Shown here: positions 108-7,764 of the stretch, piece by piece
How the letters are laid out: each line of letters begins with the position of its first letter
Numbering within the stretch: the first letter of the stretch is position 1
Source: a bacterium
Lineage (GTDB): Bacteria > UBA9089 > JASEGY01
NCBI GenBank assembly: GCA_030019105.1
Contig: JASEGY010000078.1
Location: 1-11,170, forward strand
Direction of reading: 5' to 3'
DNA length: 11,170 bases
The notes under the pieces: generated by a model
What the model was told of the DNA's origin: nothing
What the model saw: only the letters and a program-made list of their open reading frames with translations
The model's database searches: none
Program-made: the position numbers and the translations under genes

Positions 108-140
108 AGATTGATTTGGTTGTGGCAGGAGACCGCGCTA
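108..140 (+). promoter_or_regulatory. SD-in-loop hairpin leader, copy 1 (of the giant ATPase gene)
   Basis: This is one of three copies of a 33-bp repeat; it is 30/33 identical to copy 3 at 7711-7743 and 27/33 to copy 2. The segment GTGGC-AGGAG-ACCGC (122-136) can form a short hairpin with the Shine-Dalgarno AGGAG (127-131) in the loop. The ATG at 140 follows 8 nt after the SD. Relative to copy 3, the stem change C to T keeps pairing as U-G, while G to A breaks the loop-closing pair. The repeat ends on the A of the start codon, so it is a candidate translation-initiation module. Confidence 0.6.
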
Positions 141-3100
141 TGAAACTGCAAGAACTAATCCATGTCCCTCCTATTAAAACGGTTATCCAGTTAGCCGATG
201 CTTCCTCCTCAGATCAGGCTAAACTGAGCGAACTGCTCACCAGCTTTGTCGTTACCGAAGAGATCAAGTTCAACCTCCGGATCTTCTTAGAGACAATAGC
301 CGGAAGGCAAGGGATGGGCTTCTTTCTCATGGGCCATTATGGCACGGGCAAGTCTCATTTCTTAGCCGTCCTCTCCATCCTCCTCAAACATAACTGGAGC
401 TGGCCGCTCTTAAAGGACGAGATATTTACCCACTTCAACTACCTTAAAGAGCGTAAATTCTTAGTCGTTAAGACCCCGCTTCATCTTTATGCCGCTGATT
501 CCACCTTAGAGGAGATCATCCTCTCTTGCCTCGAAGCCCAGCTCCGGCAGGACACCCAAAAGGAAGTAGTTCTTGCCCGGGAAAGCAGCTTGCTCAGTAA
601 TTTCAACCGCTACATCCTGCCCCACCATCCTGATTTCTACCGGCAAGCAGAATCGGATGAAGCCCGCTGGCCGGGCATGGTCAGAGAAAAGCCCACCCTG
701 TCAGCCTCCTTAGTCTTAAAGTATCTCCAGACCCTGGAATCTACTCCCATCCGCATCCATTATGAGCGGCAGGATGCCTTTGAAAAAGTAGAAAAATACC
801 GGCAGACTTACGGTTATGATGGGGTGCTGCTCTTTATTGACGAGCTTTCTGAATTTTTGAGGTCCAAACCAGACCCGTCTTCCTTTAATGAAGACATCCG
901 CTTTCTTCAGTATTTAGGCGAACTCTCGGCCGGCACCCCCCTCTGGATAGTGGCCTCCCTTCAGGAAAGGATAGAAGAGACCGGCCATATCCACCAGGAC
1001 CTCTTTAACCGCATCAAAGACCGTTATCCCAAACGGCTTACCCTCTCCTCCAGTCATATCACCAGTCTGATCAGTAAGCGGCTTATTTTAAAAAAGCCGG
1101 GCGCAGAGGCAACCATCCAAAAGATATACAAACAGTTGACAGAGAACTTCCCCGGCCTCAAAGTCTCACGTGAGGATTTTATTAGCATCTATCCGGTACA
1201 TCCTTACACCTTAAAAATGCTGGAAGGACTAATGAAACTTTTCTCCCAGCACCGGGGGGTGGTTGACTACATCCATCACCAGATCAGGGGTGACCCGGAC
1301 CGAAAGATTCCCGGCATGTTAGAAGAAGAGGCCGATCATCTCCTTAGCCCTGACACCATCTTTGACCATTTTCAGACCAGGATGCGGGAAATGGTGGAGA
1401 CTGAAAGCTATTACAATATTGGCTACAAGTACTTTTCTCAGCAAATTCCCCGGATATTTGAAGACCGGAAGGCTAAAGACCTGGCCCTGCGCCTGATCAA
1501 GATAATGATCCTCACCGAGGTCTCCCCTTTAGAAAACCGGCACACCGTGCGGGAATTAACCGATATGCTCCTTTACCGGGTCAGCTCCTTAGAGGCCGGG
1601 ATTAATTATGACTACATTCGGGAGACAATCTTAGAGCCTTTATTGGCAGAGGCCGGCTACATTAAATCCGTTCCGGCAGAGGACGTGCTTGACACGGTTT
1701 ACTATTTGGACTTAGAGGCCAATGCCGCCCAGATAATTGCCCAGGAGACCAAGGGGATACTTAAATCTTTAGATGACATAAATGCCTGGCCGGAGATCCT
1801 TAAGTTGGTCAATCCCCCTTATCTGCCCCTCTCCGACCTCCTCTCTTCAAAGGTAAACAAATCCTACATAAAATGGCAGAACACTACCCGGCAGGGGAGG
1901 ATATATCTGCTGGACCTGCGTGCTCTAAGCCTTCAGGAACTTCAATCACTTTATGACAGTTTGGGGGTGGAAGAGGTGGATTTTGGCCTCATCATCGGCT
2001 TGCCCGGAGAGGTCAAAGAGCAGAGGGATTATATCCGGCGCATCCTTGAGTTCAGCCCTGAGAACCGGCTGAGTTCACTGGCTATGGTCTGGCTCCCCAC
2101 AGAGATTCAAGATAAAGAGTCAATAATGACCACATACTCCCATCTTATTTTAAAGAGGCGGCTTGAATCCAACCCGGAAACCAGGGACCTCCTCAAACTC
2201 CTGAATGGGATCCTGGAAAAGGAGCTGGCCCGGGTGCGGGAGATAGTGGTGGAATCATATTTTGCCGGCGAGATATTCAACCTGAAGGGCCAGGTGAAGA
2301 CTAATTTCAAGGAATTAGGTTATTTGCCCTTAGAAAAGATGCTCGGCGATATCCTGAATGAGCCGCTTTCCGAGGTCTATCCCAAACACAGAGAGATTAT
2401 GCCCTATACCGATACTATTTCCCAGCACCTTGTGGAAATGCTCTGGGAGGGATTTATACTTGCGGGTAAAATAAGCATCAAGCAGGCTAAAGAAGGCGGG
2501 TTGCCAACACCGATTGAAGGGGTGATGCTCCCCTTAGGAGTGGCTAAACGGTCAGGGAATAACTATCTCCTCCTGGTTGATCCCGGTAAAAATGAATTCC
2601 TGGCTAATTATCTGGCTTACATCCTTCCGGGGCAGTGCATTTCCTATCCTGAGCTTTACCTTAAATTGCGAAAAGGGCCTTACGGATTGACCCGGCATCT
2701 CTTCATCTTAGTTTCAAGTCTCCTTATCCATACCGGTTATCTAACCCCCTACCGGGAAGGCCGGCTGGTTTCTTTCAATTCTCCGGCCAGGCTTTACACC
2801 GGCGGGGTGGATGAATTTGGCGAGGGGAAGCTGATTGAGACAGATTACCAGCAGTTATTACCCCATGCTGAATTCATCTTTGGAGATATCCCGGCCCCCT
2901 TCAATCTGTCTATTCAAAAGGCGCTCGGGGAGATGTGCCACAAATTTAAGCAGGAAACCACCGGCCGGATCGAGGAGACCAAGCGGCTAATTGACCGGTA
3001 TCAGGGATATTCCTCCTTCCAGCGGCTTCCTCTGGCAGAGCTTAAGACCCAAATGGATGAGATATCAGCCCTGTGTGATGAAATCAAAACCTCCTACGAC

Positions 3101-4639
3101 TCGAAACAGGGTTTAGAAAGGATGCTGGGATTTTTAAAGAACCACCCCCAATTGCCCATTCAATTCAGAAGTTTTGGCCACTTCACCCATTTTCTTCAGG
3201 TAGAAGTCACGGAATACAACCGGATTTGTAATTATCTTACCCATCCCAAACTATTTATTCCCGCCTCTTCCGGCCTGAAACAAAGGCACGCTCTCTTGTT
3301 AGATGGCCTTAAAGATGTAGGCGGGGCCATCCTGAGCGGGGAATTCGAGGCATTTAAGGCCGGGGCGTATCAGTTCTTTGACCAATTCCAGGAGGAATAT
3401 CTGGCCAGCCACGATAATTTCTATAGCCAGGATTACTTTGATCGAATCAAGACCATCAAGGAGACCTTTGAATACGGCCTTCTCCAGAAGCTCTCCCGGA
3501 TTTCTTTAGTTTCCGTAGAGAATGATGTGGTGAAGATAGAGATGATGCTTCACTCCGGGCCGTCCCGGTGCCGGCATAATCCCGGGGCAGAATTAAGTTT
3601 TCTCCCGATGTGCGGCTGCGGATATAAACTGGAGCAGAAATTGGAGGCCCCGACGCCGGAAGAGATAATCAACTGTATCCGGAAGGGTATAGCCGAATAT
3701 GCCCGGGCATTTGCTTCTGGGGAATACCGAGAGAAGTTGGAGCCCTACATGCATGCCTTGAGCAAATTGGGCCGGCAGGAAGAGCTGGCTAACTTAAATA
3801 AACTCTTAGAGCTGCCCGCTGACGACCCACCGCGGCTAATGACTGATCTCAGATACCTGCTCACCAGCGATTTAACCGCCGAGGTGAATAAGGCCCTCAG
3901 TGGCCAGGTGCTGGTGATAGAAAGAGACCTGGATGAGTTAATCGAGCGTCTCGCTTTCAGGAAATTCTCCAGGACAGACTTGATTTCAGAGGTGCAGGGA
4001 TGGATAGATAAAGGGGAGAAGGTGAAGGATGGGGTTTACATTCAGATCAAAAGGGGAGGTCTCGAGGAGCAAGGGGCAAATCTGGAGCGCTACGGCCAGG
4101 TAAGGGATGCCATTGCGGAAGAAGGCAGCCGGTTTGAGGAGGCCTTCTGGCTTACCTGCTGCCTCCATCAGCATCAAATGTGGCACAGGCGTCTCGCCTG
4201 TGATCCTATTCACAGCCGGGACGGCGGTGCTGCTCAAAAGGCCGAGGAGAGCCTGCTCTTAAAGACGGGCTACCGCATCAATTTCTCCAGACTTGACGAA
4301 ATCGCTGCCCTGGGGGAACAGCTCCTTAAATCAGGCGCTGAGGAAGAGATAAAGAGGGTGGAGCAGCAATTGAATCAGGAGATGGTGCTTTCCGAGTTAA
4401 AGATATCCTCATTGGAACCGGCTGAATTGCTGACTATGTTGGAGCAAGAGTCTGTATTCAGGTTTGTCTCCAAAGCGGCCGGCCGGAATTTAATCAGGCA
4501 TCTTATTTCTGAGGCAGGACTTATTAAAGATGCCTCTCTAAAGGAATCTTTTAAGAGGCTGCAAAAGAGGGACGATTGGCCCCATCTTTCGATAGTCGTG
4601 GATGTTTACCGGATATTGACTCTGCTGGCCAGGCATTAA
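140..4639 (+). CDS. Giant P-loop ATPase, DUF6079 / BrxC-PglY-like
   Basis: This 1499-residue protein is probably a cytoplasmic nucleotide-driven motor or scaffold. Seen in the sequence: Walker A GHYGTGKS at residues 65-72, Walker B VLLFIDELSEF near 229-239, a sensor-1-like strand PLWIVASLQE near 267-276, and a candidate arginine finger in DLFNRIKDRYPKR. A possible zinc site uses C1144, H1146, C1158 and C1160. The N-terminus (xLIxxxPIxTVIQLxDA, then GxYGTGKSH) matches what I know of DUF6079 proteins, which resemble BrxC/PglY ATPases of BREX phage defence. The ATG at 140 is chosen because AGGAG sits 8 nt upstream; an in-frame TTG at 116 lies inside the leader repeat. No BREX methyltransferase, phosphatase or helicase is in the window, so a defence role is inference. 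Residues near 1349-1364 are encoded by a double hairpin that looks inserted. The length exceeds the roughly 1200 residues I associate with the family. ATPase: confident; pathway: unknown. Confidence 0.85.
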   Translation: MKLQELIHVPPIKTVIQLADASSSDQAKLSELLTSFVVTEEIKFNLRIFLETIAGRQGMGFFLMGHYGTGKSHFLAVLSILLKHNWSWPLLKDEIFTHFNYLKERKFLVVKTPLHLYAADSTLEEIILSCLEAQLRQDTQKEVVLARESSLLSNFNRYILPHHPDFYRQAESDEARWPGMVREKPTLSASLVLKYLQTLESTPIRIHYERQDAFEKVEKYRQTYGYDGVLLFIDELSEFLRSKPDPSSFNEDIRFLQYLGELSAGTPLWIVASLQERIEETGHIHQDLFNRIKDRYPKRLTLSSSHITSLISKRLILKKPGAEATIQKIYKQLTENFPGLKVSREDFISIYPVHPYTLKMLEGLMKLFSQHRGVVDYIHHQIRGDPDRKIPGMLEEEADHLLSPDTIFDHFQTRMREMVETESYYNIGYKYFSQQIPRIFEDRKAKDLALRLIKIMILTEVSPLENRHTVRELTDMLLYRVSSLEAGINYDYIRETILEPLLAEAGYIKSVPAEDVLDTVYYLDLEANAAQIIAQETKGILKSLDDINAWPEILKLVNPPYLPLSDLLSSKVNKSYIKWQNTTRQGRIYLLDLRALSLQELQSLYDSLGVEEVDFGLIIGLPGEVKEQRDYIRRILEFSPENRLSSLAMVWLPTEIQDKESIMTTYSHLILKRRLESNPETRDLLKLLNGILEKELARVREIVVESYFAGEIFNLKGQVKTNFKELGYLPLEKMLGDILNEPLSEVYPKHREIMPYTDTISQHLVEMLWEGFILAGKISIKQAKEGGLPTPIEGVMLPLGVAKRSGNNYLLLVDPGKNEFLANYLAYILPGQCISYPELYLKLRKGPYGLTRHLFILVSSLLIHTGYLTPYREGRLVSFNSPARLYTGGVDEFGEGKLIETDYQQLLPHAEFIFGDIPAPFNLSIQKALGEMCHKFKQETTGRIEETKRLIDRYQGYSSFQRLPLAELKTQMDEISALCDEIKTSYDSKQGLERMLGFLKNHPQLPIQFRSFGHFTHFLQVEVTEYNRICNYLTHPKLFIPASSGLKQRHALLLDGLKDVGGAILSGEFEAFKAGAYQFFDQFQEEYLASHDNFYSQDYFDRIKTIKETFEYGLLQKLSRISLVSVENDVVKIEMMLHSGPSRCRHNPGAELSFLPMCGCGYKLEQKLEAPTPEEIINCIRKGIAEYARAFASGEYREKLEPYMHALSKLGRQEELANLNKLLELPADDPPRLMTDLRYLLTSDLTAEVNKALSGQVLVIERDLDELIERLAFRKFSRTDLISEVQGWIDKGEKVKDGVYIQIKRGGLEEQGANLERYGQVRDAIAEEGSRFEEAFWLTCCLHQHQMWHRRLACDPIHSRDGGAAQKAEESLLLKTGYRINFSRLDEIAALGEQLLKSGAEEEIKRVEQQLNQEMVLSELKISSLEPAELLTMLEQESVFRFVSKAAGRNLIRHLISEAGLIKDASLKESFKRLQKRDDWPHLSIVVDVYRILTLLARH
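4184..4229 (+). repeat. In-frame double hairpin inside the giant ATPase gene
   Basis: Two adjacent hairpins lie in coding sequence. The first is CACAGGCG-TCT-CGCCTGTG (4184-4202), a perfect 8-bp stem. The second is CACAGCCG-GGA-CGGCGGTG (4211-4229), with one mismatched pair. Eight bases separate them. They read through in frame as a basic, low-complexity stretch around WHRRLACDPIHSRDGGAA. Similar paired GC-rich hairpins are usually intergenic repeats, so this looks like a palindromic element captured in an open reading frame, comparable in principle to Rickettsia palindromic elements. Confidence 0.65.
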
Positions 4640-4771: not shown

Positions 4772-4813
4772 CTTTATTAACCACGAATGAACACGAATTA
4801 TCACGAATTTTTA

Positions 4814-4967
4814 TATAGTGGTTAAGAAAAAGATTTTGGGGTTGGCTATCCTTTGGAGTTCAGGCTTTAGCCTTTCATAAGTAATGAAATCCTAAAGGAT
4901 TAACTCCGAAAGCTACATAGTCTATCTTGAATTCGCTTACCCCAAAATATTTATCTTAAGAGCTATA
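4814..4967. repeat. 154-bp MITE-like imperfect inverted repeat
   Basis: The ends TATAG (4814-4818) and CTATA (4963-4967) are followed inward by TTAAG and by ATTTTGGGG, facing CCCCAAAAT and CTTAA. Further inward, CTTTGGAGTTCAGGCTTTAG faces the related reverse-complement segment TCCTAAAGGATTAACTCCG, leaving a short loop near 4878-4885. The right arm is about 15 nt longer, so the fold has bulges. Size and terminal symmetry fit a MITE. No target-site duplication could be identified. Confidence 0.55.
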
Positions 4968-4971
4968 GCAC

Positions 4972-5046
4972 ACGGATGATACGGATTCGACGGATTTTTA
5001 CTGATTTTTATTATCCGTGTCTATCCCTCTCATCCGTACAATCCGT
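4972..5046. repeat. ACGGAT / ATCCGT iterated inverted repeat
   Basis: ACGGAT occurs at 4972, 4981 and 4990 (9-bp spacing). It faces ATCCGT at 5013, 5032 and 5041, with a degenerate ATCCCT at 5023. The centre is AT-rich. The architecture, three direct iterons facing their inverse, is the same as that of the surrounding CACGAAT repeat with a different word. Confidence 0.7.
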
Positions 5047-5123
5047 CTTCTATTTGCCTCATCGGCTAAATTCAGGTATTGTTTTTATTCGTGTATATTC
5101 GTGTTAATTCGTGGCTGAGTTAC

Positions 5124-6256: not shown

Positions 6257-6423
6257 TCTGAAGGTAACCGTTCAACCAGGTGAAAAAAGGAACCAGAGTA
6301 TACAGGTTGAAGACTTTTTCTAACCGCACAGGTCGCAAAGTTGCCCCGAAATATTGAGAAGATACGCATTTGGCACATTCCGCAATCCGCAATCCGCAAT
6401 CCGCATTCGGCAATCCGCAATTG
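6257..6423. other. Convergent spacer with TCCGCAA tandem array
   Basis: This 167-bp gap separates two converging genes. It holds copy B of the TATTGAGAAGATAC repeat (6352-6365). It also has an array of 7-bp TCCGCAA units with one variant (about 6379-6420) that abuts the amrS stop codon. A weak GGTTGAA/TTCTAACC stem near 6305-6322 is the only terminator-like structure, and it lacks a T tract. I see no gene here. Confidence 0.6.
6345..6365 (+). repeat. Short dispersed repeat, copy B (TATTGAGAAGATAC)
   Basis: The 14-mer at 6352-6365 is identical to 64-77, with similarity extending left to 6345. It sits just before the TCCGCAA array in the convergent spacer. Confidence 0.6.
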
Positions 6424-7437
6424 TTACATCCCAATGCCATCGATAGTCGCTCCACAGGAGGGACACCGCCTCTCGCTCAGTTCGTTTTTTAAAACCGCAA
6501 AACCATATCGCTGAATGAGTAATCGACCGCAGTCAAAGCAAAAGGTTGATTCGCTTTCTTCGCCAGGGACATTTCCGACATAAATATACCGAAGTCCTGC
6601 TTGTTTGCCTATATCTATGGCAAGTTTGAGGGTATCCACCGGCGTAGAGCGAAGATGCGTCATCTTGTAGTCAGGATGAAACCGGCTGATATGCCACGGG
6701 ATTTCTACCCCTACGTCCGCGATAAAACCGGCTATCTGAGTAAGTTCTTCCTTAGAGTCATTCTGCCCGGGTAAAACCAGGGTAGTTACCTCAACCCAGA
6801 TGTCGAGTTCCCTCATTAATCTAATAGAAGAAAGAACCGGCTCTAATCCGGCCTTGCAAATCCTCCGATAAAAGTCCTCCCGAAAGGATTTAAGATCAAC
6901 ATTAGCCCCATCAAGGTAAGGGGCAATAGTTTTCAGGGCTCCGGCAGTCATATAGCCGTTAGTGACAAAAATATTAGCCATGCCCTCCGCATGGGCCAGC
7001 CGGGCGATATCGCAGGCATATTCAAAGAAGATAGTCGGTTCAGTGTAAGTGTAAGAAATACTTTGGCAACCATGCTCTTTAGCTGAATCAACAATCTGTT
7101 GGGGCTCAACAAACTGTCCTCTGCCTTCGGAAACCGAAGCCTGAGATATGTTCCAGTTCTGGCAGAACCCGCACCTGAAATTGCAGCCAACCGTGGCAAT
7201 GGAAAAAGAGGTGGAACCCGGATATAGATGAAAGATGGGCTTTTTTTCAATAGGATCGATATTTAAGGCTACCGGCTTCCCATAGACTAAGCTGTAAAGC
7301 CTCCCCCCACGATTCTGTCTGACCTGGCAGATGCCTAATGAACCTTCACATATTTTACACCTGTGAGCACAAAGGTTACATCTGACCTGGTTGTCTTCTA
7401 ATTTCTCGTAAAGCATCGCCTCTTTAGACATATCCAT
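6424..7437 (-). CDS. amrS: AmmeMemoRadiSam system radical SAM enzyme
   Basis: A 337-residue cytoplasmic iron-sulfur enzyme of the PflA-like COG1180 group. Seen: an N-terminal cysteine cluster CNLCAHRCKIC with a further cysteine (C20, C23, C27, C30, C37); the radical SAM motif CNFRCGFC (C85, C89, C92), which binds the 4Fe-4S cluster used to cleave S-adenosylmethionine; SYTYTEPTIFFEY near 128-140; VDLKSF near 180-185; PWHISRFHPDY near 247-257; and a C-terminal zinc-ribbon-like pair C300/C303 and C325/C328. This layout and length are typical of AmrS, which co-occurs with AMMECR1 and Memo proteins; the substrate is not settled to my knowledge. Neither partner is in this window. The ATG at 7437 is chosen because GGGAGG (7445-7450) lies 7 nt upstream; the in-frame TTG at 7461 lies within the leader repeat. 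It does not obviously belong to the kinase operon, as a 309-bp repeat-rich spacer intervenes. Confidence 0.92.
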   Translation of the reverse strand: MDMSKEAMLYEKLEDNQVRCNLCAHRCKICEGSLGICQVRQNRGGRLYSLVYGKPVALNIDPIEKKPIFHLYPGSTSFSIATVGCNFRCGFCQNWNISQASVSEGRGQFVEPQQIVDSAKEHGCQSISYTYTEPTIFFEYACDIARLAHAEGMANIFVTNGYMTAGALKTIAPYLDGANVDLKSFREDFYRRICKAGLEPVLSSIRLMRELDIWVEVTTLVLPGQNDSKEELTQIAGFIADVGVEIPWHISRFHPDYKMTHLRSTPVDTLKLAIDIGKQAGLRYIYVGNVPGEESESTFCFDCGRLLIQRYGFAVLKNELSERRCPSCGATIDGIGM

Positions 7438-7469
7438 AGCGCGGCCTCCCACCGCAACCAAACCAAACT
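7437..7469 (-). promoter_or_regulatory. SD-in-loop hairpin leader, copy 2 (of amrS)
   Basis: Read on the minus strand this matches copy 3 at 30 of 33 positions. The stem is GCGGT/GCCGC with the SD-bearing loop GGGAG. The C to T change in the stem keeps pairing as U-G. As in copy 1, the repeat ends on the A of the ATG. Genes with unrelated products therefore share the same initiation region. Confidence 0.62.
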
Positions 7470-7519
7470 TATCACAAGGAACATAAAAGACACAAGGGAC
7501 ACAAAGGACACGAAAAACC

Positions 7520-7561
7520 GATTACCGATCACCTGATTATGATTACCGATCACCTGATTAT
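7520..7561 (+). repeat. 21-bp tandem duplication starting GATTACCGATCACC
   Basis: Two perfect adjacent 21-bp units (7520-7540, 7541-7561). A third, shortened copy, GATTACCGATCACCGATTAT, lies at 7745-7764, partly inside the 3' end of the kinase gene. Confidence 0.85.
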
Positions 7562-7614
7562 AATATTACCCCGCAACATTTGCGTTGTCCGCGAGAATGT
7601 TACGATTGCGGATT

Positions 7615-7673
7615 GAAATTGGAAATTAGAAATTAGGCTTTCACGCTTTTCCTAATTTCCAATTTCCAATTTC
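7615..7673. repeat. 23-bp-stem hairpin built from GAAATTG units
   Basis: The left arm at 7615-7637 and right arm at 7651-7673 are reverse complements with one mismatch, around a 13-nt loop. The right side continues with one more unit to 7680. It is downstream of the kinase gene on the minus strand and might slow or end its transcription, but it is AT-rich and no T tract follows. Confidence 0.75.
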
Positions 7674-7710
7674 CAATTTCAGCGTTCCATAATCCGCAAT
7701 CTGCAATCCA

Positions 7711-7743
7711 AGATTGGTTTGGTTGCGGCAGGAGGCCGCGCTA
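7711..7743 (+). repeat. Orphan SD-in-loop hairpin leader, copy 3
   Basis: This has the best stem of the three, GCGGC-AGGAG-GCCGC (7725-7739), and the full 33-bp repeat. It is followed by CTAAG where copies 1 and 2 have CTATG, so no ATG is present. The frame leading from it is only the antisense of the kinase 3' end. Its orientation is opposite to copy 2, so the two copies form an inverted repeat around the 7470-7710 spacer. Confidence 0.6.
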
Positions 7744-7744
7744 A

Positions 7745-7764
7745 GATTACCGATCACCGATTAT
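7745..7764 (+). repeat. Third GATTACCGATCACC copy, overlapping the kinase stop
   Basis: A single diverged copy of the 7520-7561 unit abuts the orphan leader repeat. On the minus strand it encodes the last residues and stop codon of the kinase, suggesting the repeat supplied the present C-terminus. Confidence 0.6.

Follow-up and report, generated by a model that had tools for sequence, protein, structure and literature searches.

A dispersed 33-bp hairpin repeat as the probable right end of a short non-autonomous mobile element with a TA[A/T]G target site

Correia and RUP elements are MITEs of the IS630 type, which carry terminal inverted repeats and duplicate a TA. Both are mentioned in PMC3049150, which also describes the pneumococcal BOX elements as two fixed end modules around a variable middle that can contribute a start codon. 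Members of the IS200/IS605 group have subterminal hairpins, no clear terminal inverted repeat and a fixed tetranucleotide at one end (PMC6006769). REP sequences carry GTAG or CGTC tags according to PMC3733652, and TnpA-REP cuts at a C^T dinucleotide (PMC8266576; carets mark junctions throughout). The element described here shares with IS200/IS605 the subterminal hairpins at both ends, the absence of a clear terminal inverted repeat and the fixed tetranucleotide at one end, but differs in having no linked Y1 gene, no strand bias seen in a local test, no recognised guide-sequence pairing and a long, variable palindromic middle. With BOX it shares the modular architecture and the capacity to contribute a start codon; however, according to PMC3049150, BOX elements are confined to streptococci, have terminal inverted repeats and start ORFs that lack a good Shine-Dalgarno (SD) sequence.

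A short element with two fixed ends and a defined insertion site

The original prediction concerned a 33-bp sequence in our window, by which we mean the whole analysed stretch of 11,170 nucleotides. The three copies, at 108-140 (+), 7437-7469 (-) and 7711-7743 (+), were recovered with pairwise identities of 27, 30 and 30 of 33, within the 27-30 originally given, and are reported by a repeat search of the window as inverted repeats I1 and I2. As predicted, the last base of two copies is the A of an ATG with which an ORF begins, one at position 140 (a DUF6079 protein) and the other at 7437 on the minus strand (a radical SAM protein). AAG follows the third, which adjoins a converging histidine kinase gene at that gene's 3' end. 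The 5-bp stem and 5-nt loop were likewise found as described at all three copies, and two of the three stem substitutions leave a wobble pair, the remaining one leaving C.A. The features of the window are as follows.

115..138, plus strand: right (hairpin) end of copy 1, with stem 122-126/132-136 and loop AGGAG at 127-131
139..142, plus strand: target TATG of copy 1, whose ATG (140-142) opens a DUF6079-family gene (140-4639)
7435..7438, minus strand: target TATG of copy 2, whose ATG opens the radical SAM gene (6424-7437)
7439..7464, minus strand: right end of copy 2, with loop GGGAG
7559..7741, plus strand: complete element of 183 nt, with left end TATAATATTACCCCGCAACATTTGCG, palindromic middle and right-end hairpin GCGGC-AGGAG-GCCGC
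7576..7600, plus strand: left subterminal hairpin, at columns 18-42 of alignment A1; its sequence is conserved, with no covariation
7615..7673, plus strand: main part of the central palindrome, with arms 7615-7637 and 7651-7673 that are 96% complementary
7725..7739, plus strand: right-end hairpin of copy 3, with stem 7725-7729/7735-7739 and loop AGGAG at 7730-7734
7742..7745, plus strand: target TAAG of copy 3, a few nucleotides past the stop codon of the converging histidine kinase gene

No left end was recognised upstream of copy 1 in the 114 nt that the window offers there, nor upstream of copy 2 on the minus strand in 420 nt.

The window holds other repeats as well. The 1499-aa protein encoded at 140-4639 matches DUF6079 (PF19557) and has a P-loop-like start; two small palindromes lying within its frame, at 4184-4202 (cacaggcgtctcgcctgtg) and 4211-4229 (cacagccgggacggcggtg), leave that frame unbroken and resemble a palindrome inserted into a coding region. 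A palindromic stretch at 4855-4907 (ggagttcaggctttagcctttcat...gaaatcctaaaggattaactcc) can also be seen by eye in the flanks of loci L023, L174, L206 and L209, and may represent another dispersed repeat family. Positions 4965-5054 match, at 78%, the dispersed repeat that hosts the L207 element discussed below. Short degenerate tandem and inverted repeats, with units ttgtaggttgtagg, cacgaat, ccgcaat, gacacaaagg and gattaccgatcacctgatt, occur in the intergenic stretches 1-50, 4781-5114, 6381-6422 and 7475-7560, and the middles of the mobile elements are built of stretches resembling them.

The source genome (G000; 4.34 Mb in 1053 contigs) contains 135 places that match the right-end core pattern with up to three mismatches, against none for the reversed pattern, and thus the window repeat is not a chance occurrence; the left-end core finds 137 places, again with none for its reversed control. 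Our detailed sample consists of 100 distinct copies, taken from the window and from the retrieved loci and having as many as four mismatches in some cases; it draws on 100 listed of the 135 places, leaving out the listed C642, C708, C720 and C742. In this sample, GCGCT is followed by AAG in 76 copies, ATG in 18, AGG in 3 and other triplets in 3, and since the sequence is mixed from the fourth base after GCGCT onward, the right boundary is sharp. TA[A/T]G adjoins the right end in 94 copies, and in 97 a G stands two positions after the TA. The loop reads CAGAG in 76 copies, AGGAG in 17 and GGGAG in 3, with four singletons, while in ten copies outside this sample it is only 3 nt long and reads TTC; the proposal that the SD core is kept in all copies thus fails genome-wide.

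The sequence upstream, read for the 45 copies where enough of it was available, showed a second conserved end. It was found by pattern in 37 copies (starting TATACT in 30 and TATAAT in 5) and has the form TATA.TATTACC...ACATTTGC..., with a start that reads TATA[C/A]TATTACCCCGCAACATTTGCGTTGTCCGCGAGAAT, the right end being GGTTGCGGC-loop-GCCGCGC. The elements are mainly 127, 176, 183-190 and 244 nt long, and their palindromic middles differ. The 33-mer is therefore the right end of a larger, though still short, element in which a palindromic middle that varies lies between the fixed left end and the fixed right-end hairpin. A subterminal CCGCAAC occurs in opposite orientation at the two ends, which otherwise differ, and there is no proper terminal inverted repeat. 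As DNA, the complete window element folds into two hairpins, one at either end, with a long stem in the centre; the fold lies far below those of shuffles, with z-scores of -6.8 and -6.4 for the two strands. Both hairpins are subterminal, and covariation does not back their pairing: it is absent from the left hairpin, and the score of the right one (19 sequences chosen from pattern hits) was reached by 34 of 500 shuffles, so that pairing changes lend it weak support at most. Sixteen stretches surround a left end for which no right end was listed. None of them revealed an autonomous copy: nine have right ends with the TTC loop, two (L267 and L276) have no right end, and the rest are cut by runs of N or contig ends.

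The element sits directly 5' of TA[A/T]G (on the other strand, 3' of C[T/A]TA), and where an ATG follows a copy, it is part of the target site and not of the repeat. Head-to-tail copies (L211 of the source genome and the public L066, L067, L071 and L133) join GCGC^TATA, that is, GCGC runs straight into the next left end, and hence the A[A/T]G that follows a copy is not the element's own; in the betaproteobacterial L097 the junction is GCGC^TATG with a left end. Empty sites lead to the same conclusion. Another dispersed repeat hosts the L207 element. Six empty copies of this host repeat, in the same genome, are 95-98% identical to the filled one over 123-129 nt spanning the junction: they read GGATAC^TACGGATTACC, and L207 reads GGATAC[127 nt]TAGGGATTACC. 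This insertion is precise; the base after TA is C in the empty copies (TAC) and G in L207 (TAG), which may reflect an older variant or a change on insertion. Between the source genome and the same-genus genome G001, gatB is filled in the former, where it starts right after the right end, and empty in the orthologue of the latter (81% identical; ...GGTAAGGATATGGATTAC), whereas nadC is filled in G001 and empty in the source genome (77% identical; ...GCTTATGAGACTT). In both empty genes the native start codon is a TATG. Together with the tandem junctions, these sites rule out the ATG as a part of the repeat. A scheme in which a target TATA is left behind and the element brings TAAG or TATG was also rejected, as it would rob gatB and nadC of their native start codon.

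Further empty sites were sought with L206 in G001, which gave distant matches only, and with TrpA of G001 in the source genome, which gave no match; MurC was left out of this evidence, its two versions sharing 35% identity. Coding sequence on both flanks was scored for 35 copies and is confident on both sides in three, among which the flanks of L030 and L156 join in frame and those of L178 do not.

The right end, at up to two mismatches, was found in 4 of 41 genomes (the source genome and 40 relatives), with 133 places in the source genome, 17 in G001 and one in each of two others. At least 102 stretches of a public genome collection contain the exact right end with ATG behind it; as the search pattern demanded the ATG and only listed matches were retrieved, these copies are uninformative on how often an ATG follows. 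Titles among the listed matches name Chloroflexi, Planctomycetota, Alpha-, Beta- and Deltaproteobacteria, Nitrospirae, Nitrospinota, Auribacterota, Zipacnadia and Bacillota, and some of these phylum labels may stem from binning errors. Related left ends precede the same right end in Chloroflexi and Betaproteobacteria, where the span from ATTACC to ATG runs from 73 to about 340 nt, with one longer tandem reading; under several other phylum labels the right end recurs alone. The listed matches include the isolate Skermanella aerolata, in which a TnpB-like (OrfB_IS605) frame at L053:6039-6662 (-) starts at the ATG behind a right end with the loop CACAG. A Bacillota contig with a right end also carries a HEARO RNA (RF02033, 100.9 bits) at L101:1997-2293. 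Carriage by plasmids or viruses is not supported, the plasmids searched giving no match and the viral contigs one right end and no left end. Many listed copies in the source genome lie within about 60 nt of a contig end (e.g. L006, L015 and L018), and the element seems to break the assembly.

Start codons and Shine-Dalgarno loops

In the source genome, 7 of the 18 ATG copies open genes at their start, namely both window genes, a DUF488-like gene (L026), L162, GatB (L174), L175 and L202; the genes at the last two we take by eye to be MurC and CobA, respectively. The start codons that carry copies include those of housekeeping genes. One copy (L030) lies within a gene, with the same frame on both sides, and another (L028) appears by eye to split a DUF4160-like gene at an internal methionine codon. 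In G001, for which loci were available at 14 of 17 places, 5 of 11 ATG copies open ORFs of at least 250 codons. For both genomes together, gene starts make up 12 of 29 ATG copies; in the background, taken from loci of the source genome, 92 of 673 TATG sites open a frame of at least 100 codons (p 2e-4). The loops differ in this respect: gene starts account for 12 of the 23 ATG copies whose loop has a GGAG or GGGG core and for none of the 10 with CAGAG or TTC (p 0.004); counting L030 as a start instead of an in-gene copy gives 13/29 overall and 1/10 for the non-SD loops (p 0.026). Open frames were scored for 98 of our 100 copies, two with N downstream being left out. Among these, the 74 AAG copies have frames of at least 60 codons in numbers of 14, 4 and 15 (forward) and 17, 9 and 10 (reverse); they show no preference for gene starts, and some lie inside genes.

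Among the public copies, 32 of 101 have an ORF of at least 80 codons in the ATG frame, versus 8 and 14 in the other two forward frames. Thirty of these 32 ORFs were compared with Pfam (L134 and L139 were outside the test and are counted as no hit). Behind SD-core loops, 10 of 15 ORFs have a domain over cut-off (HypF, DnaB, alcohol dehydrogenase, glycosyltransferase and others) and five have none; near-SD loops precede four ORFs, one over the cut-off (L128) and one below it (L057), and non-SD loops precede 13, of which 11 were tested, with one hit (L053). Per public copy, Pfam hits over cut-off number 10 of 41 with an SD core versus 2 of 60 without (p 0.002), a contrast confounded with phylum, given that the SD loops are mostly from Chloroflexi. 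Copies with an SD loop thus sit on real start codons much more often than others, and a cassette effect exists, though confounded with lineage.

The four ATG copies of the source genome that have no left end despite enough upstream sequence (the minus-strand window copy, L026, L162 and L174) are all gene starts. Nine have a left end: L175 is a gene start, L028 and L030 are within genes, and six (L009, L014, L031, L167, L188 and L211) are neither. This pattern would fit random insertion, followed by retention at those start codons where the loop offers an SD core. The proposed translation-initiation cassette accordingly holds for a minority of copies, those with SD loops on start codons, but not for the 76 of 100 followed by AAG. 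A genome-wide pattern scan did find many copies (135), yet those examined do not mostly end on start codons, and stem covariation is weak at most. Copies that ignore start codons had been named in advance as evidence against the cassette, and the 76 AAG copies, with no preference for gene starts, are of this kind.

A cis-regulatory leader (a thermosensor or protein-binding hairpin) copied as the signal of a regulon could explain why some copies, including those of both window genes, carry an SD core in the loop and lie directly against a start codon. It is hardly credible, given that most copies precede AAG and show no preference for gene starts, some of them lying inside genes, that the loops CAGAG and TTC lack a full SD core, that the genes involved look unrelated, that the SD is exposed in the loop, and that two of the three window hairpin regions fold as RNA no better than shuffles (z of 0.62, -0.17 and -2.03). 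A search of 17 sources also gave no Rfam match on the element.

Candidate mobilising enzymes

Our preferred reading, to which we assign a probability of roughly 0.7, takes the repeat for the right end of a short mobile element that is non-autonomous and has a TA[A/T]G target site. Its description as mobile or copied is borne out by the genome-wide copies, the two fixed ends and the precise empty sites. An enzyme supplied in trans would recognise both ends, and would most likely be a Y1/HUH (IS200/IS605-like) transposase acting on single strands; this identification is a guess with little direct support, and we put it somewhat below even odds. New copies would land at many TAAG and TATG sites. 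Those on TATG start codons would persist mainly when the right-end loop holds GGAG(G), since such an insertion leaves the start codon unharmed and supplies a ribosome-binding site 7 nt before it. Both window copies on start codons would be such survivors, and the "leader cassette" copies in general look like insertions tolerated at start codons.

The source genome has one Y1 gene, which is RAYT-like, and no copy of the element lies beside it in the 2142 bases read; linkage to this gene is thus not supported. Y1_Tnp has no match in 3 of 29 host genomes, G001 among them, and a scan of 31 Y1 loci for the ends gave one weak right-like match (4 mismatches) and one weak left-like match (2 mismatches). 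Linkage to Chloroflexi Y1_Tnp proteins of 496-572 aa, which by eye resemble a receiver domain with a Y1-like part at the C terminus, was likewise not supported. In the Chloroflexi proteins of 533-563 codons found with Y1_Tnp at L228, L229, L230 and L233, the N-terminal part resembles, as we judge by eye, a response-regulator receiver domain. HUH elements favour one strand at the replication fork. The orientation of our copies shows no bias relative to local GC skew (49/96 and 47/99 positive), which as a local proxy is a weak test.

The same mobile element might instead be moved by an IS630/Tc1-like DDE transposase that duplicates TA. The junctions read X-TA^TAC...GCGC^TA-[A/T]G, which fits a 2-bp TA duplication as well as no duplication at all, and the CCGCAAC common to both ends in opposite orientation is also compatible with such an enzyme. 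The element further resembles Correia and RUP in being small and non-autonomous with TA at its junction, but those have terminal inverted repeats where ours has unlike ends, and the nearly invariant G two positions after TA exceeds what a TA target needs. We consider this origin unlikely.

Still less probable is that a RAYT (TnpA-REP) moves the repeat as a REP sequence and that the left part is a passenger. Like REP, our element is a dispersed, high-copy hairpin of similar size, its right boundary falls at C^T as does the TnpA-REP cut reported in PMC8266576, and a RAYT-like Y1 gene is present in the source genome. However, the consensus around the 100 copies has neither a GTAG nor a CGTC tag, the RAYT-like gene has no neighbouring copy, G001 carries copies and has no PF01797 match, and the element has two different fixed ends.

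Implications for genomes that carry the element

Searches of the literature by topic and by sequence string, with most subscription journals outside their coverage, found no description of the element, which is weak evidence of novelty. We tentatively suggest, at clearly less than even odds, that an element family common to several phyla has evolved a harmless way of landing on start codons, in which TATG keeps the ATG and the SD of the loop, suitably spaced from it, replaces the host's ribosome-binding site; old copies would keep the right end only, so that gatB and other genes would start from a domesticated transposon end.

If our preferred reading of the repeat as a mobile-element end is true, it defines a mobile element present under several bacterial phylum labels and explains one class of the intergenic palindromes and contig breaks seen in metagenome-assembled genomes. 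It would also be a clear case of ribosome-binding sites donated by transposition, and the defined ends and empty sites allow direct tests of the mobilising enzyme as well as of the donated ribosome-binding site.
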